IMG/VR virus record: IMGVR_UViG_3300032018_000005
Span: 1 to 64,000 of that record
Direction: 5' to 3' (one strand)
From: a virus
Length of the DNA: 64,000 nt
The translations under genes were made by a program, and so were the position numbers. The notes beneath the pieces were generated by a model. The model ran no database searches, was not told the DNA's origin, and was given only the letters and a program-made list of their open reading frames with translations. Of the stretch, positions 11,811-57,167 are shown in pieces (position 1 is the stretch's first letter; each line of letters starts with the position of its first letter).

Positions 11811-12116
11811 ATGGCTAAGACAGGTGGCGGTAAAAACGGTGGTAAACAGAAGTTCTGGCGCAAATGTGCTAAGAAAATGTTTGATGGTAGTACAGCAATA
11901 AGAACAGGAAGAAATCTGAAAAATGCAATGAATGGGACAAATCATCCAGGATTCCTTCTTCCTATTCATGTTTGGTTATTCAAGAGTGCAGGAATTTCCA
12001 CACCCGTTCTTGATTCTAGTATCATTCAAAAGTATAATAGTAATATAGCAGAAGATCAATCTGTTGTAGATGCTGAAATAATTACTAGTGAAAGGAATGA
12101 AATTGCAACTATCTAA
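11811..12116 (+). CDS. Hypothetical protein, 101 aa
   Basis: ATG 11811 with AGGGGG upstream. The N-terminus is glycine- and lysine-rich (MAKTGGGKNGGKQKFWRKC), the rest shows no recognised domain. Its 3' end overlaps the start of gene 45 by 20 bases, implying coupled translation. Confidence 0.6.
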   Translation: MAKTGGGKNGGKQKFWRKCAKKMFDGSTAIRTGRNLKNAMNGTNHPGFLLPIHVWLFKSAGISTPVLDSSIIQKYNSNIAEDQSVVDAEIITSERNEIATI

Positions 12117-12771
12117 AATAACTAGAGACATCCTCTCTAACTTTTCAAAAATAAATTCTAATCTTGTTATTCGTAAAGGTAAGAAAGTAGCAACTATTTC
12201 ATCTGGGAAAGATATCATTGCATATTTTGATGGGGATGATGAATTCACTGCACAAATGTCAATATTCAACTTGAATGAATTTTTGGGAGTATTGAGTGCG
12301 TTTGATAATCCAGACTTGGAACTACAAACCAAGTATGTGACTATTACACAAGGTAAACAAAAAGTATCTTACATTTATGCAGATGAGAGTTTGCTTATTC
12401 TGCCACCCGAAAAAGAAATCAAATTTCCAGTTTCGGATATATCTTTTTCGTTGGATGATGATATAATTAATAAGCTTCAAAAGATGTCAGGTATCTTAGC
12501 TGCTGAAGATTTGGCCGTTGTTGGTAATAGTAAAAAGATTGTTTTAAAAGTATTCAATAAAAGCAATCCATCTGCAACTTCTTTTGAACTTGAAACCGAT
12601 GTAGATACCGATGAAGAATTTCAGGTCAATTTCAAAATCGAAAAATTGAAATTATATCCTGGAAATTATACCGTTGATATCTCAAATAAAAAGATTTCAA
12701 GGTTTGCTCACGATAGCGGTAAACTTGTATATTTTATTGCTATTGAAGCAGATTCTGTATTTTCGGTATAG
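12097..12771 (+). CDS. 45: Sliding clamp gp45
   Basis: 224 aa (T4 228). The start LSKITRDILSNFSKINS, the FLGVLS turn, and the end KLYPGNYTVDIS followed by VYFIAIEADS match the T4 clamp at both ends. The trimeric ring tethers DNA polymerase gp43 and, in T4, activates late transcription with gp55 and gp33. Start ATG 12097 is preferred over GTG 12088 because it aligns with T4 gp45; the AAGGA before it is close. The usual neighbours gp44, gp62 and RegA follow, but here interrupted by the dispersed element. Confidence 0.92.
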   Translation: MKLQLSKITRDILSNFSKINSNLVIRKGKKVATISSGKDIIAYFDGDDEFTAQMSIFNLNEFLGVLSAFDNPDLELQTKYVTITQGKQKVSYIYADESLLILPPEKEIKFPVSDISFSLDDDIINKLQKMSGILAAEDLAVVGNSKKIVLKVFNKSNPSATSFELETDVDTDEEFQVNFKIEKLKLYPGNYTVDISNKKISRFAHDSGKLVYFIAIEADSVFSV

Positions 12772-16613: not shown

Positions 16614-16631
16614 TGAAAGTGGTGATTGATT

Positions 16632-17504
16632 ATGATAAGACTAGCGCAGAAACCATTCCTTTCGGTTCAAGGTGAAGGTCCACGTACTGGCAAATTGACC
16701 ATATTTGTTAGATTCTTTGGGTGTAATTTGCGATGTCCTGGGTTTTTTCAATCAGACCCAACAAATCCAGAATCGTATATAATACCAATCAAAGCAGACC
16801 CAAAATCATTTAACACATTGAATGATTTCCATACTGTTGAGTATGGCTGCGATACACTTTATGCTATCGACCCAAATTACAAACACCTAGCTATAACATA
16901 CGAAACCACACGGGCATTGGTAGAGGAGATAGAATCTCTTTTACCGAAAAACAGCAGTGGATATCCTACTTGGACACACCCAGTAACATATAACGAATAT
17001 GATATCTGTTTTACTGGTGGTGAGCCGTTACTTCATCAGCAAGTAATTGAAGATATTCTTTCTGTGTTACATGAGGACACACGTTTCACTTATCCTGATT
17101 ATGTACAATTCGAGACAAATGGGACTAAAGAATTGACTGCTGAATTGGCAAAAGAATTGAGAAGTTGGTTTGTGTTATTTAATGTATCACCAAAGCTTTT
17201 TTCTGTTTCTGGTGAGCCTTCTGATAAAGCGTGGTTTCCAGATATTATTAAAAGATATCATCAATATGGTAAAGTGTCCCTTAAATTCGTTGTGAATAAT
17301 ACAGACATAGCGTTCATTGAGTTATATGAAAAAACAAAATCTATGGGAGGAATCCCCATATATATCATGCCAGTAGGAAGTTCATTTACACAACAAACCG
17401 ATTATGCTACAATAAGCGCAATTGCTACTAAAGCGATTGAGCGAGGTTATCATGTCAGTGGTAGACTTCATTGTATTTTATTTGGAAATGATATTGAGAG
17501 ATAA
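16632..17504 (+). CDS. queE: 7-carboxy-7-deazaguanine synthase (QueE family)
   Basis: 290-aa radical SAM enzyme. The LSVQGEGPRTGKLTIFVRFFGC opening and FTGGEPLLH are diagnostic of QueE, which turns carboxytetrahydropterin (CPH4) into 7-carboxy-7-deazaguanine (CDG). The cluster motif is unusual: C31-x3-C35 is followed by Phe at position 38 where canonical enzymes have the third cysteine; Cys 73 (in VEYGCDT) could replace it. The length exceeds bacterial QueE because of an insertion between the cluster motif and GGEP. FolE and QueD lie far away at 43.5 and 54.2 kb. Confidence 0.85.
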   Translation: MIRLAQKPFLSVQGEGPRTGKLTIFVRFFGCNLRCPGFFQSDPTNPESYIIPIKADPKSFNTLNDFHTVEYGCDTLYAIDPNYKHLAITYETTRALVEEIESLLPKNSSGYPTWTHPVTYNEYDICFTGGEPLLHQQVIEDILSVLHEDTRFTYPDYVQFETNGTKELTAELAKELRSWFVLFNVSPKLFSVSGEPSDKAWFPDIIKRYHQYGKVSLKFVVNNTDIAFIELYEKTKSMGGIPIYIMPVGSSFTQQTDYATISAIATKAIERGYHVSGRLHCILFGNDIER

Positions 17505-34126: not shown

Positions 34127-36646
34127 ATGAGCAATTTTTACATATATAGTAAAGTCTTAGGCAACTCTATCTTATACCGAGGATATGAGGGTGAGAAACA
34201 GATATGCGAAAAACGCGAATTCTCCCCTACTCTTTTCGTTCCAAGCAAAACCCCATCATCTGAATGGAATTCTCTTTATGATAATATCCCATTGGATCCT
34301 GTTGTTTTTGGTGATATAAAAGAAGCAAAAGAATTCATAAAAACATATGAAGATGTGCAAGGCATCGAAGTACATGGATTTCAGAAATTCGAATATGCAT
34401 ATATCAATCAGGAATTCCCAAAAGAAGTCGAATATGACATATCAAAGGTCAATATTTTAACATTGGATATTGAGGTCGTTTCTGATGGGGAAGAAGGAGA
34501 CGATGAATCATTTCCTGATATTCAATCTGCATCGACTCCAATAGTATTGATTTCTTATCATTCATCCAAAACAAATAAAACTGTTGTTCTTGGATTGAAG
34601 CCATACGAGAATCAAAAAGAAGATGATTTCCAGTATATAGAATTCACTTCTGAAAAGGAACTTCTAAAACATTTTATTTGTTTTATTCAATCGTCTAAAC
34701 CAGACATTGTTACAGGGTGGAACATAGACCAATTTGACATACCATATATCATCAATCGGATTATTCGGTTGTTCGATGAAAACATGGCAAAGAAGCTCTC
34801 TCCATTCAATTATATTAGAGAAAAGCCTCTTCTTATTAGAGGAAAAACGGTTCAGACATATGAAGTATATGGGCTGATAACTCTTGATTTACTTGAGTGT
34901 TATAGAAAATTTGGGTCTTATAACAAAAAAGAATCATATGCTCTTGGTTTTATTGCTCAGGAAGAACTTGGGAAAACAAAATCTGAACTTCCGGGGCTGT
35001 CATTCCGCGATAATTACAACAATTTTTTTCAGAAATTTGTCCAATATTCTGCAATTGATACTATTCTTGTAAAGAAACTAGACGAAAAACTGAAACTAAT
35101 CGAATTGATGTTCACTATTGCATTTATGTATAAGTGTAATCTAAATGATGTTTACAAAACAGTAGTACCATGGGAAGTATTCATATTTAACCATTTGCAT
35201 TCTAAGAAGATACCAATACCACCAAGACGCAATGGTATGGTCGGTGAAGTAGAAGGAGCATGGGTTAAAACTCCTATTGTAGGTATGCATGGTTGGACTA
35301 TGTCCTTCGACTTCAATGCTTTGTATCCAAACATAATTTTCCAATGGAATATCTCCCCTGAGACATTTGTACCAGCCGAATTTGATGTCAAAGTTGCCGA
35401 TTTTTTGAATATTACTACAGATGGTATGTTGGCTGGCGGACATGCAAGAAAAAACGATTTTTCCATTGCAGCAAACGGTTCTTTATATCGGAAAGATAAA
35501 TTTGGTTTCTTGGCTGAACTAGTTAATATCTGTATGAGTAGCAGAAAAATAGCAAAAAAAGAAATGATTAATTTGGAAAAAGAATTTGCAATGTCTGGTA
35601 ATAAAGCATTGCTTCCTAAAATATCTTCACTTGATGCTAAACAGAAAGCATTAAAGGTGGCAGCTAATTCTGTCTATGGTGCAATCGGAAACGAAGGTTT
35701 CATGTTCTACGAATATCGTATAGCTGAAGCAATTACATTGACAGGACAATTGTCAGATTTGCACCTTGCTAAGACGTTCAATATAAAGATTAATAAGATC
35801 ATGAAAACAGTGAATACCGATTATGTGCTATATGGTGACACTGATAGTCTTCTTATTGATTGCCAGCCAATTGTAGACAAATTCATGCCTGGAAAAACAA
35901 GAGACGAGATTGTTAAATTCCTCGATAAGTTCGGTGAAGATGTGGCTCAACCAATAATAAATGACTCTGTTGATACAATTTTTAATCAAATGAATTGTAA
36001 GACTAAAGTGATGAATAGTAAAAGGGAAGCAATTGCATCAAAGGCTATTTTCATCGCAAAAAAGAAATATGCAATGTACGTTCATAATTCAGAAGGAATT
36101 GCGTATAACCCACCCAAAATAAAGGCTATGGGATTAGAGATAGTAAGATCATCAACCCCTCAATGGTGTAGAAAGAAATTGAAAGATAGTCTACAGATGA
36201 TATTTGAGACATCAGAAGAAGAATTTAGGGAGAATTTTAAGAAGATAGAATTAGAGTTTAAAGAGCAACCGCCCGATGTTATAGCATTTCCAAGAGGCAT
36301 AAGCGATATAGACAAATATGTTGAAAACGGTAAACTCAAAAAGGGTGCTCCTATTAATGTTAGAGCAGCGTTTTTATATAATGAACATACTAAGAAACTT
36401 ATTGGGTGCCCTCAAATACAGAATGGTGATAGAATAAAATTTCTTTACATGAAATTACCAAATCCCATTAGAGAAAATATATTTGGTTTCCCAGTTGGAC
36501 AAACAATACCTAAGGAATTAAAGTTAGAGAAATACGTTGATTATGATACTCAATTTTTCAAAACATTTGAATCTCCATTGAAGGCATTAACAGATGCCGC
36601 TGGGTGGAAATTACGTGAAGTTAGCACATTAGAAGGATTTTTCTAA
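34127..36646 (+). CDS. 43: Replicative DNA polymerase gp43 (family B)
   Basis: 839 aa (T4 898). Proofreading exonuclease motifs: TLDIEVV (about 112), NIDQFDIPYI, YSAIDTILV; polymerase motifs: DFNALYPNII (about 395), KVAANSVYGAIGN (about 511) and YGDTDS (about 568). It ends STLEGFF, a hydrophobic tail in the place where T4-type polymerases bind the gp45 clamp. The DpdA protein at 44.2 kb has almost the same ending. Confidence 0.97.
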   Translation: MSNFYIYSKVLGNSILYRGYEGEKQICEKREFSPTLFVPSKTPSSEWNSLYDNIPLDPVVFGDIKEAKEFIKTYEDVQGIEVHGFQKFEYAYINQEFPKEVEYDISKVNILTLDIEVVSDGEEGDDESFPDIQSASTPIVLISYHSSKTNKTVVLGLKPYENQKEDDFQYIEFTSEKELLKHFICFIQSSKPDIVTGWNIDQFDIPYIINRIIRLFDENMAKKLSPFNYIREKPLLIRGKTVQTYEVYGLITLDLLECYRKFGSYNKKESYALGFIAQEELGKTKSELPGLSFRDNYNNFFQKFVQYSAIDTILVKKLDEKLKLIELMFTIAFMYKCNLNDVYKTVVPWEVFIFNHLHSKKIPIPPRRNGMVGEVEGAWVKTPIVGMHGWTMSFDFNALYPNIIFQWNISPETFVPAEFDVKVADFLNITTDGMLAGGHARKNDFSIAANGSLYRKDKFGFLAELVNICMSSRKIAKKEMINLEKEFAMSGNKALLPKISSLDAKQKALKVAANSVYGAIGNEGFMFYEYRIAEAITLTGQLSDLHLAKTFNIKINKIMKTVNTDYVLYGDTDSLLIDCQPIVDKFMPGKTRDEIVKFLDKFGEDVAQPIINDSVDTIFNQMNCKTKVMNSKREAIASKAIFIAKKKYAMYVHNSEGIAYNPPKIKAMGLEIVRSSTPQWCRKKLKDSLQMIFETSEEEFRENFKKIELEFKEQPPDVIAFPRGISDIDKYVENGKLKKGAPINVRAAFLYNEHTKKLIGCPQIQNGDRIKFLYMKLPNPIRENIFGFPVGQTIPKELKLEKYVDYDTQFFKTFESPLKALTDAAGWKLREVSTLEGFF

Positions 36647-43495: not shown

Positions 43496-43524
43496 TTGAC
43501 TGGTGGTATTCCTACCAGTATAAT
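43496..43524 (+). promoter_or_regulatory. Promoter of the folE-dpdA operon, with palindrome in the spacer
   Basis: TTGACT, 17 bases, TATAAT. Unlike the other early promoters it lacks the ATTTAAT extension; the spacer instead holds ACTGGTGG...CCTACCAGT, an almost perfect inverted repeat that could be an operator. Confidence 0.65.
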
Positions 43525-43548
43525 TATCATATTACATAAAGGAACCAC

Positions 43549-44214
43549 ATGAAAACAGATAAAGAATTGGGCAAAAAAATACATAATTATTTGATATCTT
43601 TAGGAATAGAAACACCTATGGATAAAAAATCGACATATCCTGTTGATGATGATTATAAAATAGGACAAATAACACATCATATTAGTAAGATTATGGGCGT
43701 TTTAGAATTGGACTTGTCTGATGATTCTTTGAGTGATACTCCAAATAGAGTGGCGAAAATGTACGTGAATGAGATATATCGTGGACTCAATTATAACAAT
43801 TTCCCTAAAATAACTACCATCGAAAATAAAATGGATGCTGGTATGGTCGTAGAAAAGAACATAAAATCAATGAGTTCCTGTGAACATCATCTAATCACAA
43901 TAGATGGTTCTGCATGTGTTGCATATATTCCAAACAAAAAAGTTATTGGTCTTAGTAAATTAAATCGTATAGTGGACTTTTTCTCTCGTAGACCACAAGT
44001 TCAAGAAAGATTAACTAATCAGATTTGGTACACTCTTTCATATCTTCTCGGCACAGAAGATATAGCTGTATATTTGGATGCTGTCCATTACTGCGTTCGT
44101 TCTCGTGGGATAGAAGATGCTAATAGTTCAACCATAACAAATAAATTGGGTGGGTCATTTAAAACAGATCCTGCATGCCGAGCAGAATTTATGTCTATTG
44201 CGAGGTCAATGTAA
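43549..44214 (+). CDS. folE: GTP cyclohydrolase I (FolE)
   Basis: 221 aa. SDTPNRVAKMY, SSCEHHLITIDG with zinc ligands C111/H114 region, KVIGLSKLNRIVDFFSRRPQVQERLT, and HYCVRSRGIED with the third zinc ligand. It converts GTP to dihydroneopterin triphosphate, the first step to 7-deazaguanines. AAGGA upstream of ATG 43549; dpdA starts on its last base. Confidence 0.96.
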   Translation: MKTDKELGKKIHNYLISLGIETPMDKKSTYPVDDDYKIGQITHHISKIMGVLELDLSDDSLSDTPNRVAKMYVNEIYRGLNYNNFPKITTIENKMDAGMVVEKNIKSMSSCEHHLITIDGSACVAYIPNKKVIGLSKLNRIVDFFSRRPQVQERLTNQIWYTLSYLLGTEDIAVYLDAVHYCVRSRGIEDANSSTITNKLGGSFKTDPACRAEFMSIARSM

Positions 44215-45380
44215 TGAAGCCTCCAATTTATTTCCCGGCAATTTCTTGTACAACTACCGGATATCTTACCGATGCTGATGATATTCTTATTGGTGGTGTA
44301 AATAGACCATGTTCACCAAGGTTTTTTAACTCCAATGAAGAATCATATTATAAACACCCATATCTTTTGATATCTGCTGCGCATCATTTCAAGAAATGTC
44401 CTAATATCAGGGAAGAACTTCGTATTAGCAAAGACACAAAAGTGTTTATAGATTCTGGTGGACATCAATTGGCGACCGGTGTTGTGTCTCATAAAAATTA
44501 CAATAGCAAAATTGCATTGGAGTGGTCAGAGAAAAACGGTGATATTTTTCCTATTTTAGACCACCCAGTTACTCCTGGATGTAATGTACAAGAACGATTG
44601 GAAATATCTGGGAAATCCGCCACATATTATTCTGATAATAGAAGCGTAAAAGGAACACAAATTTTAAATGTGGTATCATCGTCAAATATTGGGGGGAGTG
44701 AAGTTTGGTATGATGGTATGAAGCATTTCCCTCTTGATGGTTGGGCGCATGGTGGACATCGAGGAAATATAACTCCTATTATACAAACGTTTCTTCATCT
44801 TGGAAATAATGGTGAATTTAATCGTGGATATACCGTACCATATCATATTTTTGGTGTATCTTCACAGATTGCATTTATCTATTTTGCGGTGATGCAATTA
44901 GAAGCAAATAGATTGGGTTGGGATGTTCAGATAATGAGCGATAGTTCATCATTCCAGATTACCTTAGGACACGGTGGCTTTATGTTGTTTGCTTCTTATA
45001 CAGGTATTCAAGCTATCAGGATGTCAAACAAATTCGACTATACTAAATTGACATCGGGTGCCAAATTACCTTGCGATTGTAAGGTATGCGAAGGTGTAAC
45101 AGATATAGCAGCATTCGTGAATGATCCCAAACAATTTTATTTGCTTGGTGCTATTCATAATTTAGCAGTTGTCTTGCGTTATAAAAAGGCAATTGATAAT
45201 ATGATTACATGTGGGGTATATGAAATCGCAGAAGAATCGTTCCCTGCGGCGATAGTATCTAACATCAAAGCAATAAAGGAAGCAATGAAAGACCCTATTA
45301 AAGGGATAGCCCTTATTGGATATACATTTAAGCATAAAGATATTGTCGATAATGCAAATTCGTTAGAAGGATTTTTTTGA
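44214..45380 (+). CDS. dpdA: DNA 7-deazaguanine transglycosylase (DpdA, TGT superfamily)
   Basis: 388 aa. TGT-type motifs: FIDSGGHQLAT (DSGGHQ at residues 80-85, with the general-base Asp), DHPVTPGCNVQERL, DGWAHGG, and the zinc site CDCKVC (about 286-291) with His about 314. DpdA enzymes swap guanine in DNA for a 7-deazaguanine base and protect phage DNA from restriction nucleases. The C-terminus NSLEGFF copies the clamp-binding-like end of the polymerase (STLEGFF). Coupled to folE (TAATG) and directly followed by the QueD-like gene. Confidence 0.88.
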   Translation: MKPPIYFPAISCTTTGYLTDADDILIGGVNRPCSPRFFNSNEESYYKHPYLLISAAHHFKKCPNIREELRISKDTKVFIDSGGHQLATGVVSHKNYNSKIALEWSEKNGDIFPILDHPVTPGCNVQERLEISGKSATYYSDNRSVKGTQILNVVSSSNIGGSEVWYDGMKHFPLDGWAHGGHRGNITPIIQTFLHLGNNGEFNRGYTVPYHIFGVSSQIAFIYFAVMQLEANRLGWDVQIMSDSSSFQITLGHGGFMLFASYTGIQAIRMSNKFDYTKLTSGAKLPCDCKVCEGVTDIAAFVNDPKQFYLLGAIHNLAVVLRYKKAIDNMITCGVYEIAEESFPAAIVSNIKAIKEAMKDPIKGIALIGYTFKHKDIVDNANSLEGFF

Positions 45381-45734
45381 ATGAAGAAACAAATATTCGT
45401 TAGATTTGAGTTTGAAGGGTTTCACAAATATCCAAATGCCCCAGAAGAAGTATCCTTTCTTAGGAATTTGCATCGGCATATTTTCAAGTGTAAAGTGACT
45501 GTAGATGTTTTTCACGATGATAGAGAACTTGAGTTTTTTATGGTTAAGCATTATCTTGAGAGCAAATTTAAAAGTGGGGAGGATGTTAACAACAAATCCT
45601 GTGAAATGATATGCTCTGATATCTATGATGCGATGAAGAAATATGGAGACCCATATTATGGCCACGCAAGAGAAATAGAAATAGAAGTATCTGAGGACGA
45701 CGAAAATGGCGCAATTATGAGATCAACAATATGA
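45381..45734 (+). CDS. QueD-like T-fold protein lacking the catalytic cysteine (DpdL candidate)
   Basis: 117 aa. His 15 (FEGFHKYP), His 31 and His 33 (LHRHIF) sit where QueD/6-pyruvoyl-tetrahydropterin synthases bind zinc, but the C-x3-H cysteine is missing, whereas the true QueD at 54.2 kb has it. So the fold and metal site are likely kept but the reaction changed. I recall that phage enzyme DpdL, proposed to decarboxylate CDG, was a QueD-like protein; assignment here is tentative. Starts one base after dpdA stops and overlaps the glycosyltransferase gene by four. Confidence 0.6.
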   Translation: MKKQIFVRFEFEGFHKYPNAPEEVSFLRNLHRHIFKCKVTVDVFHDDRELEFFMVKHYLESKFKSGEDVNNKSCEMICSDIYDAMKKYGDPYYGHAREIEIEVSEDDENGAIMRSTI

Positions 45735-46807
45735 AGAATATAATCATTTTTTCTCTTGAGCCAATAGACACAAGATATACAGGAGAATGGCATAAACATA
45801 TCCCAGGTTTATTGGATTACTCTTGTGCTGACAGATATAATATTGTACAGATAGATGGAGATACTAATAGCGGTGCCACGACTGAAGGTGCATTTTTAGA
45901 TTTTATCTCGACCAATCAATGGAAGAACGAGCAGGCGAATAAATTCTTTGAAATGGTCAAACAAGGTAAAGTTGGACGTGATGATATTCTTCTATTTCCT
46001 GATGGGTGGAATCCAATAATCACTGAAATAAAATATGTTAGCGATTTAATGGATATGCAATGGAAAATCCATGCTTTGTTTCATGCTGGCAGTTGGGACG
46101 AGAATGATTTTTTAGGTAGAATAATTGGGGCAAAAGATTGGGTTAGAGACTTTGAAAAATCTTTATATTGGGCCATAGATTATTGTTATTTTGCAACATA
46201 CTACCATGCTAATTTGTTTTTCAATGCGCTATTTAATCGTGATATAGATTCCTTTGATGAAAAGATAATCGTTACTGGTTGGCCAATGGAATATGTGCAT
46301 GAAATGCTAGAACCATATACCAATATTGTTAAGGAGAATTTGATTGTCTTTCCTCATAGAATAGCACCAGAAAAACAAGTAGCTATTTTTAGAGATTTAG
46401 CAGATTCTTTACCAGAATATGAATTTGTAGTATGCCAAGACACGAAATTAACTAAGGCAGAATATCATACATTGTTAGCTAAGGCTAAAATCGTATTCAG
46501 CGCCTCACTGCAAGAAACCCTTGGTATCGGTTGTTATGAAGGGGCTGTTCTTGGAGCATTTCCGCTTGTGCCTGATAGGCTGTCATACCAAGAAATGTAT
46601 TCTGATGAGGTTAAATATCCTAGTGAATGGACAGAGTCATGGGAATTGTATTTGGTATATAAAGAGGATTTGATAAACAGAATCAGATTTGAAATGGCTT
46701 CCTTTTATAATTCGACAGACATAATTAACCAGCAGGTACATAGATTAGAAAATGTTTTTTTTAATTCAGACGTATTAATTACAAATATAATAACATCAGA
46801 TGAATGA
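45731..46807 (+). CDS. GT-B-type glycosyltransferase
   Basis: 358 aa. The C-terminal Rossmann half carries VFPHRIAPEKQ, EFVVCQ, KIVFSASLQETLGIGCYEG and GAFPLVPD, the donor-binding pattern of GT-B (GT4-like) enzymes; the N-terminal half is the presumed acceptor domain. Overlapping the QueD-like gene and followed by the radical SAM gene with 8 bases overlap, it looks like part of the base-modification operon and could glycosylate the modified base; acceptor not shown. Confidence 0.75.
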   Translation: MKNIIIFSLEPIDTRYTGEWHKHIPGLLDYSCADRYNIVQIDGDTNSGATTEGAFLDFISTNQWKNEQANKFFEMVKQGKVGRDDILLFPDGWNPIITEIKYVSDLMDMQWKIHALFHAGSWDENDFLGRIIGAKDWVRDFEKSLYWAIDYCYFATYYHANLFFNALFNRDIDSFDEKIIVTGWPMEYVHEMLEPYTNIVKENLIVFPHRIAPEKQVAIFRDLADSLPEYEFVVCQDTKLTKAEYHTLLAKAKIVFSASLQETLGIGCYEGAVLGAFPLVPDRLSYQEMYSDEVKYPSEWTESWELYLVYKEDLINRIRFEMASFYNSTDIINQQVHRLENVFFNSDVLITNIITSDE

Positions 46808-47777
46808 CCATTATTTTAAAGATCCAAATGTCATGGAATTTATGCGAGACATGGAAAGTGTCCCATATATTTCCAAGATAGAATTGACAGAAGATTGCCA
46901 GTTATCTTGCCCAGGTTGTCCTACCGGTAAAATAACACCAAATGGCAAATCTGATATATCGTTATCGTTACTCCAGAAGATAGTAGATAATAATTGGTTA
47001 CGGAATACTCCTTATGTCGAATTGATGATGTCTGGTGAGCCTACTCTACATAAGAATTTTGCGGCCGCCATTGACATTATTAAATCCTCAGGAGTTATGG
47101 TTGGTTTGTCAACCAATCTTGTCGATAGGAAGAAAATACCAACATTAGCTAAACTCGATTCCATAACGGTATCCATGGATGTGTTTAATAAAGAAGGGTA
47201 TGAGCTTTCACGACCACCAATGAAATTCGATAGGCTAATAGATAATATTAGAGAACTTGTTAATAGTTGTCCTTCTAGCACCATGATTTATTTGCAACTT
47301 TTACGCACAGAATTCACGGAAAAGTATTTTCTTGCATCTATCTCTGATGCCAAGAAATTTGTAGAGGAATTGAACTTAGCCTCTATCAATGCTGGCAGGA
47401 AACCTAATGTTGTATTGCGGTATGTATCAGATTGTTTCAGTGAAGTGATGGGTAGAAGCGTAATATCAATGTCAAGTAAGATGTGTACTACACCTTTCAC
47501 CTCAGTTGTTATTAAATCTTCTGGTACAGTTCTCCAATGCGGGTTTTGTTTTACTGGAAAAGAAGAAGGCCTTATACTAGGCGATATCAATACTTCTACA
47601 TTAGAAGAGATATGGTCAGGAGACGAAGTTAGTGCAGTAAGATTAGCACACAGGTCGCAGAAGAATTTACCACCAAGATGTGTTGCCTGTGCAGATAAGA
47701 ATAGAAGCATCCATGTCTTCCAAACTAATATTACAGTGGATATTATGCGCCACCGCAATGGTATTTTAATTACATAA
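46800..47777 (+). CDS. Radical SAM enzyme with SPASM-type C-terminus
   Basis: 325 aa. Cluster motif C33-x3-C37-x2-C40 (CQLSCPGC), MSGEPTLH as the GGEP-like SAM motif, and a C-terminal cysteine set (CTTPF, LQCGFC, RCVACADK) as in SPASM/twitch auxiliary cluster domains, with LGDINTSTLEEIW typical of that region. Substrates of such enzymes range from peptides to nucleosides and sugars. Last gene of the folE-dpdA operon by overlap. Confidence 0.82.
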   Translation: MNDHYFKDPNVMEFMRDMESVPYISKIELTEDCQLSCPGCPTGKITPNGKSDISLSLLQKIVDNNWLRNTPYVELMMSGEPTLHKNFAAAIDIIKSSGVMVGLSTNLVDRKKIPTLAKLDSITVSMDVFNKEGYELSRPPMKFDRLIDNIRELVNSCPSSTMIYLQLLRTEFTEKYFLASISDAKKFVEELNLASINAGRKPNVVLRYVSDCFSEVMGRSVISMSSKMCTTPFTSVVIKSSGTVLQCGFCFTGKEEGLILGDINTSTLEEIWSGDEVSAVRLAHRSQKNLPPRCVACADKNRSIHVFQTNITVDIMRHRNGILIT

Positions 47778-47791
47778 TGAAAGGAAATAAA

Positions 47792-48004
47792 ATGGAACAC
47801 AAAGTTAATGAAAGTCGTGGATTGCATGAGTTTGTTCGAGTAGGTCGTCCGGACGTGTTGTTTGATTGTCGTACAAAATATTCAATTGATAAAAAAGAAT
47901 TCGAGAAATCAATGAATGATCGTAAACGTATTGCTTTTGATGATACTCATACCGAAGTTATTGGTGGGTTTGCAATTACTGAACAATTATCTCCGGAAGT
48001 ATAA
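47792..48004 (+). CDS. Small hypothetical protein, 70 aa
   Basis: ATG 47792 chosen because AAAGGAAAT precedes it; 47777 is also in frame. Charged, reads RGLHEFVRVGRPDVLFDCRT. No family recognised. A strong early promoter overlaps its stop. Confidence 0.6.
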   Translation: MEHKVNESRGLHEFVRVGRPDVLFDCRTKYSIDKKEFEKSMNDRKRIAFDDTHTEVIGGFAITEQLSPEV

Positions 48005-48005
48005 T

Positions 48006-48033
48006 TTGACATTTAATTCTTCTTCTGTATAAT
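48006..48033 (+). promoter_or_regulatory. Early promoter
   Basis: TTGACA, 16 bases, TATAAT with the TTGACATTTAAT extension; drives the KTSC gene. Confidence 0.85.
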
Positions 48034-48886: not shown

Positions 48887-50014
48887 ATGTTTGAAATACA
48901 AAAGATATATAAGTTTTATCATTGTACCGATTCAACAATCCATACCCCGTTTATTGATGCATTGCAGCAGTTGGGTATTGATGTGAAAGATTACCCTGAA
49001 CATAAGATGTGGCTTTTGGATTATAACCAAATCACATGCATAAAGAATCATCCAGTAGTAAATGAATGCCGTGGTCTTCTTATGGGGTATGATGGTACTA
49101 TTATTCGTAAGGGATTCGATAGGTTCTATAATTTGGGCGAAAATGGAGTATCAGAATTTGATTTTGAAAACTCTGTAGCATTTGAAAAGGCAGATGGTTC
49201 CCTTATGTTTGTATACTGGTGCCCACCAACTAATCGTTGGGAAATTGGCACTCGTGGGACAGCATTCGCGGAAGGACCAAACGAATTCCACGGAACATTC
49301 CGTAAGTTTATGCTTTCTGCTATGGGTCGTTCAGAAGATCAATTCCAACTTGATTGTTTTGGTATGGATAGAGGTGTAACTCGCTTATATGAAGCCACGG
49401 GGCCTGATAATAGGATAGTGACTCCATATAAAGAAAATGGGCTAGTCGCGTTGTCTTATGTTAATAATAAGACAGGTGAAGAAGTTGTTGCTCCAGCTGC
49501 CACATTTGAAAAGAAAGCATGTGGGTGGAATGTGCGTGAAGTTCGACAATATAAATTCAACACAAAAGAAGATTGTATGATTGCGTTAGCTGAATTGACT
49601 GGTCTTGAAGAAGGATATGTTGTCAGGAATACGAAAACCGGTGAACGGGTAAAAATCAAGAATGCAGTGTATCTGGCTGCACATCGGTTGCGTGGTAATG
49701 GATTGACTAAAAATTCTATATTCGAATTAGTTGCAATGGGTGAAGTAGATGAATATTTAGCTACATTCCCGGAGGATACTGAAAAGTTTAATGATGCTCT
49801 TATTCAATTTGCTGCCATGAAAAATGAACTTTTTATTCTGTATGAGGAATATAAAGGAATAGATAATCAAAAAGAATTTGCATTGAAAGTTAAAGATTCT
49901 CGGCTGTCTTGTGTAATGTTCAAAGCTAAAAAGAACGGTACCGCAGTTATGGCCGAATTTAATTTGTTCCCTGTAAATAAACGAGCAGAATGGATAAAAG
50001 AAATGCTAGTATGA
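48887..50014 (+). CDS. rnlA: RNA ligase 1 (Rnl1, T4 RnlA family)
   Basis: 375 aa (T4 374). Nucleotidyl-transferase motif I EKADGS with Lys about residue 101; VNECRGLLMG upstream; EGYVVRN (motif IV) and VKIKN (motif V). With polynucleotide kinase it repairs tRNAs cut in the anticodon loop by host nucleases such as PrrC. The kinase is at 50301. Confidence 0.92.
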   Translation: MFEIQKIYKFYHCTDSTIHTPFIDALQQLGIDVKDYPEHKMWLLDYNQITCIKNHPVVNECRGLLMGYDGTIIRKGFDRFYNLGENGVSEFDFENSVAFEKADGSLMFVYWCPPTNRWEIGTRGTAFAEGPNEFHGTFRKFMLSAMGRSEDQFQLDCFGMDRGVTRLYEATGPDNRIVTPYKENGLVALSYVNNKTGEEVVAPAATFEKKACGWNVREVRQYKFNTKEDCMIALAELTGLEEGYVVRNTKTGERVKIKNAVYLAAHRLRGNGLTKNSIFELVAMGEVDEYLATFPEDTEKFNDALIQFAAMKNELFILYEEYKGIDNQKEFALKVKDSRLSCVMFKAKKNGTAVMAEFNLFPVNKRAEWIKEMLV

Positions 50015-50241
50015 GATTTCAAAAATCAATTAATAGACAAAGGAAGAGAATGCAGTGTAAAGAGCCGACCCATTTTCATATCGACCAATCAGGTAAGTTG
50101 GTCGGATGTTATAAAGCATGTATCAGTTTACTAACCAGTTGGCAATTTTGGATTGGTGTTACTATAAGTTTCCCATTGGAACATTTTCTTTGGGAGCATG
50201 TATGGCCATTTTACATTCTAACAAATGCATTTGGTTTATAA
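50011..50241 (+). CDS. Small protein with a C-terminal hydrophobic segment, 76 aa
   Basis: ATG 50011 overlaps the rnlA stop (ATGA). Basic N-terminus (MRFQKSINRQRKRMQ) and a hydrophobic, tryptophan-rich end (SWQFWIGVTISFPLEHFLW) that could insert in membrane. Unknown. Confidence 0.55.
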   Translation: MRFQKSINRQRKRMQCKEPTHFHIDQSGKLVGCYKACISLLTSWQFWIGVTISFPLEHFLWEHVWPFYILTNAFGL

Positions 50242-50242
50242 T

Positions 50243-50270
50243 TTGACATTTAATTGTTGATCTGTATAAT
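50243..50270 (+). promoter_or_regulatory. Early promoter
   Basis: TTGACA, 16 bases, TATAAT with the common extension; drives the polynucleotide kinase gene. Confidence 0.85.
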
Positions 50271-50300
50271 TCAATTTTGATAAATTCGACGGATTGAGAA

Positions 50301-51188
50301 ATGAAAGCAATTATAACTGTAGGTATTTCAGCATCTGGTAAATCAATGTTTGCCAATGAATTTCTATCAAAAGACCTTCTTGGTAGAGGAGAAGTAAACC
50401 GTGATAATATCCGCAAATATCTTATGGAGAAAGATGGTAACACTTTCTCGTGGGATAAGTGGAACTGGAAACGCGAAAAAGAAGTCACTATCATAGTGGA
50501 TGCTGCAATTGAATCACATGCCATGTTGAAGAATGATATTATTATTTCTGATACAAATTTGAATGGTGGTCGTCGGGATGCGCTTGAATTGAAACTAAAA
50601 CAACTTGGATACCATGTAGAAATAATGCCCTTTCCAGTTTCTCTCGAAGAAGCATGGAAGCGAGATTCTAAACGAGCAAATGGTGTCGGTCATTCAGTGA
50701 TAGCAAAGCAATATCAGGAATGGTTGAAGTATATAGAGAGAAAAACTTATATCCCTAATACAACTAAACCAAATTGTATTGTCGTAGATATTGATGGTAC
50801 TCTTGCACATATGAATGGTGGTCGTGGCGCATTTGAGTGGTCAAAAGTAGGACAAGATACTGTCGATGAATCAGTTAAACAAATAATCGAAGCAATGTAT
50901 ACCACGTTTAAGTGTAAAATTGTACTTCTTTCAGGACGTGATGCTTGTTGTATGTCAGAAACATGCTCCTGGCTGTCGGATAATGGTGTATATTTCCATG
51001 AACTTCATATGCGGCAAGAAGGAGACATGAGAAAAGATACAATCGTAAAAGAAGAAATATTTTGGGAAAAAGTTGCCCCTTTCTTTAATGTTATATTTGC
51101 AATTGATGATCGTCCATCTGTTGCTAGGCTTTGGAGAGAACTTGGACTGAAAGTGTTCCAAGTAGGAGATCCACATATCGAATTTTGA
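50301..51188 (+). CDS. pseT: Polynucleotide 5'-kinase/3'-phosphatase (PseT)
   Basis: 295 aa (T4 301). N-terminal kinase: P-loop GISASGKS (residues 8-15), ISDTNLN; C-terminal HAD phosphatase: VVDIDGTLAH (about 164), LLSGRD, AIDDRPSVARLW. Prepares ends for Rnl1. Its own early promoter precedes it. Confidence 0.95.
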   Translation: MKAIITVGISASGKSMFANEFLSKDLLGRGEVNRDNIRKYLMEKDGNTFSWDKWNWKREKEVTIIVDAAIESHAMLKNDIIISDTNLNGGRRDALELKLKQLGYHVEIMPFPVSLEEAWKRDSKRANGVGHSVIAKQYQEWLKYIERKTYIPNTTKPNCIVVDIDGTLAHMNGGRGAFEWSKVGQDTVDESVKQIIEAMYTTFKCKIVLLSGRDACCMSETCSWLSDNGVYFHELHMRQEGDMRKDTIVKEEIFWEKVAPFFNVIFAIDDRPSVARLWRELGLKVFQVGDPHIEF

Positions 51189-52360: not shown

Positions 52361-53578
52361 ATGAAAACTTTTAAAGGCTTTAATCGAAATCTCTCTTGTA
52401 GGGATTTTCAATTCAATATCGGCGAGACATTCACTCATACAGGAAATGTAGAAGCTTGCGCTTCTGGGTTTCATGCTTGCGAAAATCCTCTCGATATATT
52501 TACATATTATCCCCCTGCTAATTCGCGCTTCTGTTTGACTGAATCTAGTGGCGATATTGAAACGCACAAAGATGATTCGAAAATCGCATCATCGATATTG
52601 GATATTGTTAAAGAATTATCATTGGCCGAATTGTGTAATTATGGTGCAGAGTATATCCTGAATAATGTAATTGATACAGAAACTAATACCGGTTACCGAT
52701 CTGCTGCTACTAATACAGGTCTCCGATCTGCTGCTACTAATACCGGGGATTATTCTGTTGCTACTAATACAGGGAATAATTCTGCTGCTACTAATACAGG
52801 TTATCAATCTGTTGCTACTAATACCGGTAGCCGATCTGCTGCTACTAATACAGGTTATCAATCTGTTGCTACTAATACAGGGTATTATTCTGCTGCTACT
52901 AATACCGGGAATTATTCTGCTGCTACTAATACCGGAGATCATTCTGCTGCTACTAATACCGGTGGCCGATCTGCTGCTACTAATACCGGGAATAATTCGG
53001 CTGCTACTAATACAGGGTATTATTCTGCTGCTACTAATACCGGGGATAATTCTGCTGCTACTAATACCGGGGATAATTCTGCTGCTACTAATACAGGTAG
53101 CCGATCTGCTGCTACTAATACAGGGTATTTTTCTGCTGCTACTAATACCGGTATCCGATCTGCTGCTACTAATACAGGGGAGTATTCTGCTGCTACTAAT
53201 ACAGGGTATTTTTCTGCTGCTACTAATACAGGGGAGTATTCTGCTGCTACTAATACAGGTCTCCGATCTGCTGCTACTAATACCGGGGCTTATTCTGCTG
53301 CTGCTAATACCGGGAATAAATCGGCTGCTACTAATACCGGGGCTTATTCTGTTGCTGCTAATACCGGGGATTATTCTGCTGCATCAGTAAAAGGTAAACA
53401 TTCTGTAGCTATTGCTACTGGTAAGAATGGCAAAGCTAAAGCTGCTTTAGGTAGCGCAATAGTGCTTTGTTTCTATCAGGGAGATAATGTTATAGTTAAA
53501 TCGGCAACGGCTGGTGTTGATATATGTGCTGATGTTTGGTATACACTCAATGATGCAGGCGATATAATCGAAGCGTAA
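52361..53578 (+). CDS. Nonapeptide-repeat (NTGxxSAAT) protein, copy 2
   Basis: 405 aa. Same organisation as 25286-26257: DUF7666-like N-terminus (nearly identical over the first 100 residues), about 26 NTG-xx-SAAT units instead of 16, and the same GKNGKAKAALGSAIVLCFY end. Unit dipeptides include YR, LR, DY, NN, YQ, SR, YY, DH, GR, YF, IR, EY. AGGAG before ATG 52361 and an own early promoter. Confidence 0.82.
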   Translation: MKTFKGFNRNLSCRDFQFNIGETFTHTGNVEACASGFHACENPLDIFTYYPPANSRFCLTESSGDIETHKDDSKIASSILDIVKELSLAELCNYGAEYILNNVIDTETNTGYRSAATNTGLRSAATNTGDYSVATNTGNNSAATNTGYQSVATNTGSRSAATNTGYQSVATNTGYYSAATNTGNYSAATNTGDHSAATNTGGRSAATNTGNNSAATNTGYYSAATNTGDNSAATNTGDNSAATNTGSRSAATNTGYFSAATNTGIRSAATNTGEYSAATNTGYFSAATNTGEYSAATNTGLRSAATNTGAYSAAANTGNKSAATNTGAYSVAANTGDYSAASVKGKHSVAIATGKNGKAKAALGSAIVLCFYQGDNVIVKSATAGVDICADVWYTLNDAGDIIEA

Positions 53579-54214: not shown

Positions 54215-54781
54215 ATGGTATATGAAATAAGTAAAGAATTTTCATTTTGTTATGGGCATCGGGTATATTCGCAAAAACTAAATGAAGAATATTGTGCTAA
54301 GGGAGATACTTTATGTAAATGTAGACATCTCCACGGTCATGAGGGACTAGTGAGAGTTCATATTGAATCTAATAACGTAGATTCTCGTGGGATGATAGTA
54401 GACTTCAAAGAGTTGGGTTGGTTAAAAGATTTCATTGATACAGTAATCGACCATAAATTTATTATAGATAAAAATGACCCAATGTTTACTTCATTGGTCG
54501 AGAATATCCATAACGCCCCAACTTGTCTTGAAGTCGTATGGGTTGATGATACTAAAACCATGAAGGTTGGGGAAAAAGTTGTTTTGGATAACATTCAAAA
54601 TAATACCCCTGAATATGAAGTATTAGAAGGATATTTTATAGTAGACTTCGTACCAACCAGCGAAAATCTTGTTAAATGGATGTATAAAATAGTAGAACAT
54701 AAAATGGAGAAAATAGGAGCAAAAGTGTCATTTGTAGAATGGCACGAAACTCCTAAGACATGTGCTAGGTATGCCGAATGA
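54215..54781 (+). CDS. queD: 6-carboxy-5,6,7,8-tetrahydropterin synthase (QueD)
   Basis: 188 aa. Zinc ligands His 15 (YGHRVY), His 40 and His 42 (LHGHEG) and catalytic Cys 36 in the C-x3-HGH pattern; VDFKELGWLKDFID and DHKFI are conserved. Converts dihydroneopterin triphosphate to CPH4 for QueE. Longer than bacterial QueD by an insertion between VDFKEL and the end, as in phage members. Confidence 0.92.
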   Translation: MVYEISKEFSFCYGHRVYSQKLNEEYCAKGDTLCKCRHLHGHEGLVRVHIESNNVDSRGMIVDFKELGWLKDFIDTVIDHKFIIDKNDPMFTSLVENIHNAPTCLEVVWVDDTKTMKVGEKVVLDNIQNNTPEYEVLEGYFIVDFVPTSENLVKWMYKIVEHKMEKIGAKVSFVEWHETPKTCARYAE

Positions 54782-55973: not shown

Positions 55974-56045
55974 GAACATTTGGCCGAATGGTAAGGCAAT
56001 CGTCTGCAAAACGATTATTCATGGGTTCGATTCCCATAGTGTTCT
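55974..56045 (+). tRNA. tRNA-Cys (GCA)
   Basis: Acceptor GAACATT/AGTGTTC with one G-T pair, anticodon stem ATCGT/ACGAT with loop CTGCAAA (anticodon GCA), T arm ATGGG-TTCGATT-CCCAT. Discriminator T; only CC of the CCA end is encoded. Confidence 0.92.
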
Positions 56046-56067
56046 CCTAAGTGTATTTAAAAGATAT

Positions 56068-56154
56068 GGATGTCGACCGGCATTGGCGACTGGAGAGGGC
56101 TGTAACCCCTTTGCTCTTAGGAGCAGCTTGGTTCGAATCCAAGGACATCCACCA
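56068..56154 (+). tRNA. tRNA-Tyr (GTA)
   Basis: Acceptor GGATGTC/GACATCC perfect, loop CTGTAAC gives anticodon GTA, long variable arm GCTC-TTAG-GAGC as in class II tRNAs, T stem CTTGG/CCAAG, CCA encoded. Confidence 0.93.
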
Positions 56155-56197
56155 AATTACGTAGTATGGTAAAGTGACGTTATATACATATATCAAC

Positions 56198-56273
56198 GCC
56201 TGTGTAACTCAGTGGTAGAGTGCCAACCTTGTAAGTTGGAAGTCGAGTGTTCACTCCATCTCCACCGGCACCA
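56198..56273 (+). tRNA. tRNA-Thr (TGT), T arm irregular
   Basis: D arm ACTC/GAGT and anticodon arm CCAAC-CTTGTAA-GTTGG are good (anticodon TGT). Acceptor GCCTGTG/CACCGGC has one mismatch. The T stem pairs only at GAG/CTC and its loop lacks the usual TTCRA, so function is uncertain. CCA encoded. Confidence 0.75.
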
Positions 56274-56280
56274 AATTCAC

Positions 56281-56354
56281 ATCGCATTAGAATATGGGTA
56301 ATTCAATGGAACTTCACTCCATAGAAACGAGTCCGAGTCTCGTATGCGATACCA
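56281..56354 (+). tRNA. tRNA-Glu (TTC)
   Basis: Acceptor ATCGCAT/ATGCGAT perfect, D arm GAAT/ATTC, anticodon arm ATGGA-ACTTCAC-TCCAT (TTC), T arm ACGAG-TCCGAGT-CTCGT. CCA encoded. Confidence 0.92.
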
Positions 56355-56375
56355 ATTTAAAGTAGTATTCAATGT

Positions 56376-56448
56376 CAGTTTGTGGTGCAATCTGGTAGCA
56401 TGGCGGATCTGGAATCCGGCGATCTTGGTTCAAATCCAAGCAGACTGA
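56376..56448 (+). tRNA. tRNA-Pro (TGG), C at position 33
   Basis: Acceptor CAGTTTG/CAGACTG with C1-G72 and A73 as in proline tRNAs, D loop with CTGGTAGC, anticodon loop TCTGGAA (anticodon TGG), T arm CTTGG-TTCAAAT-CCAAG. Position 33 is C instead of the near-universal T. No CCA encoded; flanks CAAT/ATTG extend the acceptor stem. Confidence 0.8.
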
Positions 56449-56472
56449 CATTGAGTATTACTAAGTTTCTGA

Positions 56473-56545
56473 TGCGGCTTTCAATGGTGGACTCCGGGCT
56501 CATAACCCGTGATGGGAGTGGGATCGTTACCCACGGCCGCTACCA
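56473..56545 (+). tRNA. tRNA-Met-like (CAT), initiator-like features, short D arm
   Basis: Anticodon arm CGGG-CTCATAA-CCCG (CAT) has the three G-C pairs of initiator tRNAs. Acceptor TGCGGCT/GGCCGCT starts with a T-T mismatch, again as in initiators (mispaired 1-72). T stem GTGGG/CCCAC. The region 8-26 is only about 14 bases, so the D arm is reduced. CCA encoded. Confidence 0.65.
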
Positions 56546-56572
56546 AATTTACGCCAGTTATATAATGGCTAT

Positions 56573-56648
56573 GCCTCTGGTGGGCGAGGGACGCCCAGCG
56601 CACTTCTAATGCGCCATACTACTGGTTCGAATCCAGTCGGGGGCACCA
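56573..56648 (+). tRNA. tRNA-Arg (TCT)
   Basis: Acceptor GCCTCTG/CGGGGGC with G-T pairs, D stem GGGC/GCCC, anticodon arm GCGCA-CTTCTAA-TGCGC (TCT), T arm ACTGG-TTCGAAT-CCAGT, CCA encoded. Confidence 0.9.
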
Positions 56649-56651
56649 AAC

Positions 56652-56659
56652 TATAAATA
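56652..56659 (+). promoter_or_regulatory. T4-type late promoter (TATAAATA)
   Basis: Exact consensus box 17 bases upstream of the small gene at 56676, inside the tRNA cluster. The gene and following tRNAs would be transcribed late as well as early. Confidence 0.65.
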
Positions 56660-56675
56660 ATCTTTTAGAGATAAC

Positions 56676-56843
56676 ATGACAACACTCAAAGAATTAACAA
56701 GAAATATAAGTAATGTAAGAACACAACATCATTATGTTCAAGATAAGAAAACATTGAAATGGTATAATCCATCTGAACAATTCAATTTTTTGCTACAAAA
56801 GCCAGAAGTGGCTGCGGTAATGAATCGTATCAAAAACAGATAA
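56676..56843 (+). CDS. Small basic protein within the tRNA cluster, 55 aa
   Basis: ATG 56676 to TAA 56841-56843; AGAG upstream and a late promoter box close by. MTTLKELTRNISNVRTQHHY, DKKTLKWYNPSEQF, basic end VMNRIKNR. Not recognised. The only protein gene among the tRNAs. Confidence 0.6.
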   Translation: MTTLKELTRNISNVRTQHHYVQDKKTLKWYNPSEQFNFLLQKPEVAAVMNRIKNR

Positions 56844-57120: not shown

Positions 57121-57167
57121 GTTTTTATGTGGAAAGCCCCGTGAGGCATAACACATAAATTAACAAC

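Follow-up and report, generated by a model that had tools for sequence, protein, structure and literature searches.

A QueC-free phage operon that probably encodes late steps in the formation of sugar-bearing 7-deazaguanine in DNA

Introduction

Work by Cui et al. from 2023 is said to have found dCDG, 7-deaza-dG, mdPreQ1 and fdPreQ1 in phages. Sugars on DNA are known from modified pyrimidines in phages. Phage DpdA pathways give dPreQ0, dPreQ1, dG+ and dADG (Hutinet et al. 2019, PMC6884629). In T-even phages, an alpha- and a beta-glucosyltransferase glucosylate 5-hydroxymethylcytosine; the alpha-enzyme of T4 binds the sliding clamp gp45, which provides a precedent for a clamp-tied modifier (PMC13216743).

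The locus described here lies in the first 64,000 nucleotides (the window) of IMG/VR virus record IMGVR_UViG_3300032018_000005. It shares with known phage DpdA pathways FolE, QueD, QueE, a DpdA-type transglycosylase and a presumed post-replicative base exchange. Unlike those pathways, its gene cassette has no QueC, contains in addition a conserved GT4-type glycosyltransferase (GT), genes for sugar tailoring and a paralogue of QueD that lacks the cysteine, and encodes a DpdA outside the easy reach of Pfam. As proposed below, it would resemble T-even glucosylation as a protective, post-replicative glycosylation of DNA with a modifier tied to the sliding clamp, whereas the base would be a 7-deazaguanine rather than 5-hydroxymethylcytosine, the glycosyltransferase is of the GT4 type and it is the transglycosylase that carries the clamp-like tail. 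We conclude that the operon probably encodes the late steps by which a 7-deazaguanine with a sugar is formed in phage DNA. The literature accessible to our search held no report of a sugar-bearing 7-deazaguanine base in DNA, and no measured DNA chemistry for any cassette-bearing phage.

Results and Discussion

Operon organization

The operon consists of five genes on the + strand, in the order folE, dpdA, QueD-like, GT and radical SAM/SPASM, and every neighboring pair abuts or overlaps. The features of this region are:

43496..43524, + strand, promoter-like site TTGACT-17-TATAAT preceding folE (11 of 12 matches)
43549..44214, + strand, FolE, GTP cyclohydrolase I, 221 residues (NCBIfam NF006824, 306.5 bits against a cut-off of 202)
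44214..45380, + strand, DpdA, DNA guanine transglycosylase, 388 residues, ATG at 44214 (AF2 model and invariant Asp residues)
45381..45734, + strand, QueD-like protein, putatively of the PTPS superfamily, phrog_17812, 117 residues (PF01242, 24.0 bits against a cut-off of 22.4)
45731..46807, + strand, GT-B, GT4-type retaining glycosyltransferase, 358 residues (predicted fold and active-site residues)
46800..47777, + strand, radical SAM/SPASM enzyme, 325 residues (PF04055, 45.2 bits, and PF13186, 43.3 bits, both above the Pfam cut-offs)
47777..48004, + strand, open reading frame of 75 residues, with its start codon overlapping the stop codon of the radical SAM gene (no family found)
48006..48033, + strand, consensus promoter (12 of 12 matches) that belongs to the following transcription unit and marks the end of the operon

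FolE and DpdA overlap by one base (TAATG), DpdA and the QueD-like gene are separated by a 0-base gap, and the overlaps that follow are 4 bases (ATGA) between the QueD-like gene and GT and 8 bases between GT and the radical SAM gene. No further promoter match of at least 11/12 occurs between those at 43496 and 48006. Such matches are taken as a real signal here because the window contains 16 of them on the + (coding) strand versus 1 on the − strand. The arrangement expected from the original prediction, five abutting or overlapping genes behind one promoter, thus holds in its coordinates, its junctions and the promoter at 43496.

Precursor supply without QueC

Two further enzymes of 7-deazaguanine synthesis had been placed elsewhere in the window, and profile matches agree:

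16626..17504, + strand, QueE, 7-carboxy-7-deazaguanine synthase (phrog_2076, 148 bits; start codon uncertain)
54215..54781, + strand, QueD, 6-carboxytetrahydropterin synthase (phrog_2389, 121 bits; Cys of CxxxHGH present)

Residues C111, H113, H114, H180 and C182 of FolE are invariant in an alignment of 52 sequences. FolE, QueD and QueE form a set for the synthesis of 7-carboxy-7-deazaguanine (CDG) that is complete within the 64-kb window. The search for QueC called for by the original prediction found none in the record, a genome fragment of 64,238 bp. QueC was likewise not found in the complete genomes of ACP17, PA5oct, Phosso and BUCT-ZZ01 or in 80+80 cassette loci of IMG/VR, and the X1 genome gave a match below the cut-off only. 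The absence of QueC is the rule for the cassette and not an effect of truncation. Since QueC and Gat-QueC are absent from the window record, the scanned cassette loci and these four complete genomes, we do not class the cassette as a preQ0-, ADG- or G+-type pathway.

A cysteine-less paralogue of QueD

The description of the third gene product as QueD-like stands in so far as the window sequence scores above the PF01242 cut-off, but the protein is not QueD: the position of the catalytic cysteine (CxxxHGH) is occupied by a leucine (Leu27) in 85 of 85 sequences. H31xH33, E75 and E105 are invariant. PF01242 is matched by one of 35 relatives, and profile comparison of the family gave no match to a four-sequence QueD set and an E value of 4.5e-5 against a 40-sequence set of phage QueD, so that the PTPS assignment draws on the window sequence, the motifs and the larger comparison. 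Judged by its sequence, the protein is probably PTPS-like and represents a cysteine-less paralogue family. It also accompanies DpdAs in phages without the cassette GT and is thus not specific to glycosylation. Cui et al. reportedly gave the name DpdL in 2023 to a predicted CDG decarboxylase, and the QueD-like protein may belong to this family. The GT-A-like phrog_1574, found near some QueD-like genes, was set aside; it travels with replication genes and its assignment as a glycosyltransferase is very weak.

DpdA and its C-terminal tail

DpdA was barely detected by Pfam. Profile searches of the PDB with GT, DpdA, the QueD-like protein and the radical SAM enzyme returned nothing, and fold comparison was used instead. 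The AF2 model of DpdA, of moderate confidence (pLDDT 63, TM about 0.45), has as its top PDB match the DNA preQ0 insertase DpdA (7ui4; E 7.9e-6), and its first five matches are DpdA and tRNA-guanine transglycosylases (TGTs). The Asp of DSGGxQ, the Asp of LDxP and the Asp at the position of the TGT nucleophile are invariant among 69 sequences. A DpdA/TGT fold with intact catalytic aspartates is what DpdA-dependent modification calls for, and the gene identities first proposed for FolE and DpdA are borne out by the NF006824 score and by this fold.

The C-terminus of DpdA ends in the same five residues, LEGFF, as the DNA polymerase of the window:

45360..45377, + strand, SLEGFF, clamp-binding-like tail of DpdA
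34127..36646, + strand, family B DNA polymerase, ending in STLEGFF (phrog_262, 878 bits)
12088..12771, + strand, sliding clamp, T4 gp45-like processivity factor (phrog_223, 221 bits), the proposed docking partner of DpdA

Within the window, the polymerase and DpdA are the only proteins with such a tail. A broad tail motif, widened after the sequences had been viewed, occurs in the last 75 residues of 76 of 110 DpdAs, versus 1 of 572 internal windows and 30 of 880 other proteins; a stricter motif is found in 20 of 110 DpdAs versus 1 of 774 internal windows. The identity of the two tails suggests that DNA modification by DpdA is coupled to the replisome.

The glycosyltransferase

The model of GT (pLDDT 91.8) matches glycogen synthase and BshA in the PDB with E values of about 1e-9. 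R210, K215 and E270 are conserved, and the EX7E motif corresponds to E262–E270; fold, motif and the Arg/Lys diphosphate pair are those of a GT-B/GT4 enzyme. The predicted structure thus confidently indicates a GT-B/GT4 fold with an intact active site. No Pfam family of T4 glucosyltransferases matched GT. BshA of bacillithiol and MshA of mycothiol synthesis are both among the closest folds. The enzymes of these pathways, unlike the cassette, use a small-molecule acceptor and have no link to DNA. The pairing of BshA with BshB has a parallel in Xanthomonas phage PhiXhv-12, where a PIG-L (GlcNAc deacetylase family) gene adjoins the GT homologue; the window has no deacetylase.

Distribution and gene linkage

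An IMG/VR scan with the single GT sequence found nothing; a query with an alignment gave matches. IMG/VR scans yielded at least 585 and at least 592 confirmed relatives. The same core is present in hundreds of uncultured phages, and its prevailing gene order in the 80+80 loci is DpdA, QueD-like, GT, FolE, QueE. It is also carried by unrelated isolates, namely Acidovorax phage ACP17, the PA5oct group of Pseudomonas phages, Synechococcus phage BUCT-ZZ01, Sinorhizobium phage Phosso and X1, with Xanthomonas among the hosts as well, and is not a local accident. With the window DpdA as query, tblastn did not recover ACP17, X1 or BUCT-ZZ01, whose DpdA is of another subfamily.

The GT loci flanked by 5 kb or more on both sides, drawn from the nearest relatives of GT, number 37; all 37 contain DpdA, 36 the QueD-like gene and none QueC. 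GT accompanies 7-deazaguanine set-ups of three divergent kinds: one with DpdA type a, one with DpdA type b and, in PhiXhv-12, one with Gat-QueC, which adjoins the GT homologue with a DpdA homologue elsewhere in the genome. The PhiXhv-12 gene annotated as L-glutamine-D-fructose-6-phosphate aminotransferase was considered as a GlmS for GlcNAc supply and rejected, as it is this Gat-QueC. Sugar-nucleotide genes also lie immediately next to GT: DegT aminotransferase-like genes in 24 loci (directly after GT in 15), epimerase/dehydratase genes in 27, UDP-sugar dehydrogenase genes in 18 and cytidylyltransferase-like genes in 33.

The radical SAM/SPASM enzyme

The last enzyme of the operon has the radical SAM motif CX3CX2C (C33xxxC37xxC40) and the SPASM cysteines that define such enzymes. 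Its gene occurs in the cassette of two contigs only, the window and one viral contig (L001), in which a homologue of 74–75% identity holds the same position. Relatives were absent from phage records and, with the patterns used, from GTDB contigs. In all four bacterial loci examined, the relatives lie among rfbC, rfaD/rfaE, DegT and glycosyltransferase genes. As a rare accessory, the radical SAM gene stands outside the conserved core.

Proposed pathway and alternatives

In the pathway that we propose, FolE, QueD and QueE would produce CDG, which in the absence of QueC would not be converted to preQ0. The cysteine-less QueD paralogue would process CDG, most likely by removing or altering its carboxylate, either ahead of the transfer to DpdA or in the course of it. 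DpdA, held on the sliding clamp by its C-terminal tail, would then replace guanine with the 7-deazaguanine in newly replicated DNA. Next, the GT4 enzyme would place a sugar on the modified base, and this sugar (less likely the base itself) would be altered by the radical SAM/SPASM enzyme. The product may shield phage DNA from restriction enzymes. If the QueD paralogue only decarboxylates CDG, the resulting plain 7-deazaguanine would have no obvious hydroxyl to which a sugar could be O-linked, and a C7-glycoside or another unusual linkage would be needed.

GT4 enzymes often make surface glycans, relatives of the radical SAM enzyme are located in surface-glycan loci, and phages exist with the QueD-like protein and DpdA but without the cassette GT. 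The DNA might accordingly contain plain 7-deazaguanine (dCDG or 7-deaza-dG), with GT and the radical SAM enzyme acting elsewhere, for example on a host surface glycan or a phage protein. We consider this unlikely, given that in divergent phages all 37 of these loci link GT to DpdA, and that GT is tied to more than one DpdA type and to the Gat-QueC pathway. It is less probable still that the sugar is joined first to the free base or nucleotide and that DpdA inserts a glycosylated 7-deazaguanine: TGT-type enzymes do accept variously substituted bases, as established for preQ1 and queuine, and the GT gene directly follows those of DpdA and the QueD-like protein, but T-even phages glycosylate their DNA after it has been replicated (PMC13216743).

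The well-known phage DNA glycosyltransferases use modified pyrimidines, and ThyA-family proteins are present in PA5oct, Phosso and PhiXhv-12. That GT acts on a hydroxymethyl- or hydroxy-pyrimidine of the same DNA, independently of 7-deazaguanine, is nevertheless very improbable, as PF00303 (ThyA family) is absent from the complete GT-bearing genomes of ACP17, X1 and BUCT-ZZ01 and from the window fragment; without a ThyA-type enzyme, these three phages would have no maker of a hydroxymethyl-pyrimidine acceptor. Vertebrate tRNA carries mannosyl-Q and galactosyl-Q, which, like the product proposed here, have a sugar on a 7-deazaguanine inside a nucleic acid, whereas the enzymes are eukaryotic and the sugar is borne by the cyclopentenediol of Q, a moiety that the present pathway does not produce. 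A tRNA target (a queuosine-like glycosylated base) has an equally slight chance: DpdA and TGTs share a fold and score similarly here, and the window has genes for about ten tRNAs, tRNA-Tyr(GUA) among them, but the best structural match is a DNA insertase and a clamp tail like that of the polymerase is what one would expect of an enzyme acting on DNA.

The original suggestion of an elaborated, perhaps glycosylated, 7-deazaguanine in phage DNA is favored by the linkage of GT to DpdA, the three set-ups, the flanking sugar-nucleotide genes and the ThyA-free genomes; the chemistry itself is inferred. A wider reading is put forward more tentatively. Hundreds of uncultured phages, this one included, may use a QueC-free route to a family of glycosylated 7-deazaguanine bases in DNA. 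A repurposed QueD paralogue would turn CDG into a base that can be glycosylated, DpdA would insert this base at the fork while tethered to the clamp, and the GT4 enzyme would attach a sugar, perhaps as a C7 glycoside. Interchangeable enzymes of sugar tailoring, in this case radical SAM/SPASM, would then diversify the product in the manner of antibiotic gene clusters.

Implications

The core appears to be common among environmental phages, cultured ones included. The clamp-like tail of DpdA bears on how transglycosylases reach phage DNA. If the proposed pathway is true, genomes with a sugar on 7-deazaguanine in their DNA would form a chemical class of their own, new to biology, and would have a new kind of protection from restriction and from other defenses.

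Organization of the operon

The 64,238-bp IMG/VR record, nearly all of which lies inside the window, is classed as linear and is probably a fragment. It derives from a T4-like phage encoding a family B polymerase and a gp45-like clamp. The features relevant to 7-deazaguanine synthesis are as follows.

16626–17504, QueE, away from the operon
43496, promoter-like site (11/12 matches), 5′ flank of the operon
43549–47777, + strand, five genes in the order FolE, DpdA, small QueD-like protein, glycosyltransferase (GT), radical SAM/SPASM enzyme
48006, promoter-like site (12/12 matches), 3′ flank of the operon
54215–54781, QueD with its own cysteine, away from the operon

The FolE stop and DpdA start overlap by 1 base, DpdA abuts the QueD-like gene, and there are overlaps of 4 bases between the QueD-like and GT genes and 8 bases between the GT and radical SAM genes. 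No further promoter-like site of comparable quality lies between 43496 and 48006. Such sites are meaningful because, at 11/12 matches or better, the window contains 16 on the coding strand versus 1 on the opposite strand. The junctions and flanking sites thus bear out the original prediction of five overlapping or abutting genes behind one promoter, and QueE and QueD are indeed encoded elsewhere in the window. QueC, previously unseen, is absent from the whole of this probably fragmentary record. Immediately 3′ of the operon, RNA ligase and polynucleotide kinase/phosphatase genes (48887–51188) form a probable RNA repair pair.

Identity of the encoded enzymes

Pfam barely detects DpdA (PF01702, E 0.055), and only 1 of 30 relatives matched this family (E 5e-5). 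Its AlphaFold2 model, of moderate confidence (pLDDT 63), has just five PDB matches with E <0.001: the first is the DNA preQ0 insertase DpdA (7ui4), and the remaining four are tRNA-guanine transglycosylases. The aspartates of the DSGGxQ, LDxP and DSSS/DCAS positions do not vary across 69 non-redundant sequences. For the GT, the model is of high confidence (pLDDT 91.8) and the best PDB matches are GT-B/GT4 enzymes (glycogen synthase, BshA and MshA); Arg210 and Lys215 are invariant and an EX7E motif is present (Glu262, Glu270). The last enzyme has a CX3CX2C motif and a SPASM domain, with radical SAM and SPASM both above Pfam cut-offs. All three original assignments are therefore upheld.

The QueD-like protein is a more complex case. 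It shows some likeness to the PTPS superfamily and to phage QueD: the window sequence scores just above the PTPS cut-off of Pfam, the family profile aligns colinearly with that of phage QueD (E 4.5e-5), and HxH and two recognition-type glutamates are retained. The catalytic cysteine of QueD, in contrast, is replaced by leucine in 85 of 85 sequences. Since the window encodes a separate, cysteine-bearing QueD, this protein must have a role other than that of QueD.

A conserved cassette among phages

GT, QueD-like protein, FolE and QueE occur together in phages ACP17 (Acidovorax), the PA5oct group (Pseudomonas), X1 (Xanthomonas), BUCT-ZZ01 (Synechococcus) and Phosso (Sinorhizobium), the last encoding DpdA elsewhere in its genome, apart from the GT. 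Alignment-based scans of IMG/VR confirmed at least 585 GT and at least 592 QueD-like relatives; in the 80 top-ranking loci from either set, the usual order is DpdA, QueD-like, GT, FolE, QueE, and none contains QueC. Among the nearest relatives of the window GT whose loci extend 5 kb or more to either side, DpdA is found in 37/37 loci, a ratio that may be lower among more remote relatives, and the QueD-like gene in 36/37. Distant GT homologues in X1, BUCT-ZZ01 and PhiXhv-12 retain a 7-deazaguanine pathway; X1 and BUCT-ZZ01 have a DpdA of another subfamily, and PhiXhv-12 has Gat-QueC plus a DpdA homologue elsewhere in its genome. The cassette products are mostly annotated as "hypothetical protein".

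In many of 81 loci (L026 2089–2616 and 80 others; in ACP17, L004 7239–7724), a ~175-residue protein that belongs to no known family and was not seen in the window lies between DpdA and the QueD-like gene; it is probably a further cassette component. A phosphoribosyltransferase encoded within the cassette or close to it at 76 loci (L126 14296–14823 and 75 others; also L001 2742–3233) perhaps salvages the guanine released by DpdA.

Proposed role of the QueD-like protein

The QueD-like protein co-occurs with three DpdA-type families, one of which (~285 residues; Aeromonas, Vibrio and Rhizobium phages) is found in loci without a window-type GT. It therefore probably acts in the base pathway, not on the sugar. 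As QueC is absent, the end product on offer is 7-carboxy-7-deazaguanine (CDG). The retained metal-type histidines and guanine-edge-type glutamate would suit a CDG-processing enzyme. Cui and co-workers reportedly predicted a CDG decarboxylase, DpdL, in 2023, and the QueD-like protein may belong to that family.

The ~285-residue family has no Pfam assignment and is DpdA-like from motifs identified by eye; the QueD-like gene is its neighbour in phages of Vibrio, Aeromonas and Rhizobium and in environmental phages (L175 7695–8552, L177 7432–8304, L174 9071–10339, L105 10299–11165). QueD-like domains are also fused C-terminally to unrelated N-terminal domains in Vibrio phage Bakedbeans (L173 6221–7372) and Chryseobacterium phage MA9V-3 (L176 6461–7342). 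Faecalibacterium phage Roos (L178 6303–8899) carries a row of ParB-like, QueD-like, DpdA-like and YhhQ-like transporter genes, all but the QueD-like assigned by eye from translations.

A putative clamp-binding tail

DpdA and the DNA polymerase, ending in NSLEGFF and STLEGFF, are the sole ORFs of the window matching a strict C-terminal pattern. Among relatives, a broad motif within the last 75 residues, widened after the sequences were inspected, is present in 76/110 DpdAs and 67/76 polymerases, compared to 1/572 internal windows of the same proteins and 30/880 other proteins; the stricter pattern, set earlier, is present in 20/110 DpdAs versus 1/774 internal windows. The cassette often lies directly 3′ of a ~243-residue gene that carries a sliding-clamp annotation in Phosso; this gene has no Pfam match and its PHROG family has no assigned function. 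T4 α-glucosyltransferase binds gp45, although the same study found that this binding is not the main cause of the dominance of α-glucosylation (PMC13216743). Taken together, the polymerase-like tail, the motif counts, the nearby putative clamp gene and the T4 precedent make docking of DpdA to the clamp a plausible prediction.

Other features of the window

A permuted (two-piece) tmRNA of betaproteobacterial type (59536–59868; RF01850, 110.9 bits; RF04321, 117.7 bits; tag ANDTAWALQA), unusual on a phage, suggests a betaproteobacterial host. About 10 tRNA genes (Cys, Tyr, Glu, Pro, Arg, Gly, Ser, Trp, Leu and Met) lie at 55974–57670, and Rfam identified an extra one, missed by ARAGORN, at 56198–56264. 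Two paralogues (25286–26257 and 52361–53578) share an N-terminal domain followed by long NTGxxSAAT repeat runs, probably a β-solenoid.

Evidence for a proposed sugar on the 7-deazaguanine

Sugar-nucleotide genes beside the GT in many loci include a DegT-type aminotransferase (24 loci, in 15 of them immediately following the GT), epimerase/dehydratase (27), UDP-sugar dehydrogenase (18) and cytidylyltransferase-like genes (33); varied radical SAM enzymes likewise occur there. Outside the window, the radical SAM/SPASM enzyme itself is found only in the closely matching contig L001. In each of the four plasmid loci examined, its bacterial relatives (23–27% identity) have rfbC, rfaD/rfaE, DegT and glycosyltransferase genes around them, and alteration of the sugar is thus its likeliest predicted role. 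The PhiXhv-12 GT, adjoining Gat-QueC, has a PIG-L deacetylase on one side and a MocA oxidoreductase on the other. The operon of that phage also contains Aat-like and GNAT genes, a set that hints at a base carrying an aminoacylated amino sugar, and its product annotated as glucosamine-6-phosphate synthase (L007 6618–8141) is in fact Gat-QueC.

ACP17, X1 and BUCT-ZZ01 encode no ThyA-family protein, and so lack any known means of making a hydroxymethyl-pyrimidine acceptor. This absence, the GT–DpdA linkage, the sugar-nucleotide neighbours and the glycan context of the radical SAM relatives favour the further elaborated, perhaps glycosylated, 7-deazaguanine of the original prediction. If the QueD-like protein decarboxylates CDG, the sugar would need C7 or an unusual link; reconciling decarboxylation with the sugar attachment point is the weakest joint of the glycosylated-base model.

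DpdA-based 7-deazaguanine DNA is already known (PMC6884629). Searches of the open literature, in which most subscription papers are missing, found no report combining 7-deazaguanine with a glycosyltransferase or glycosylated phage DNA. What we rate as new is a predicted QueC-free, GT-bearing DpdA pathway, which appears to be widespread among phages and overlooked in annotation.
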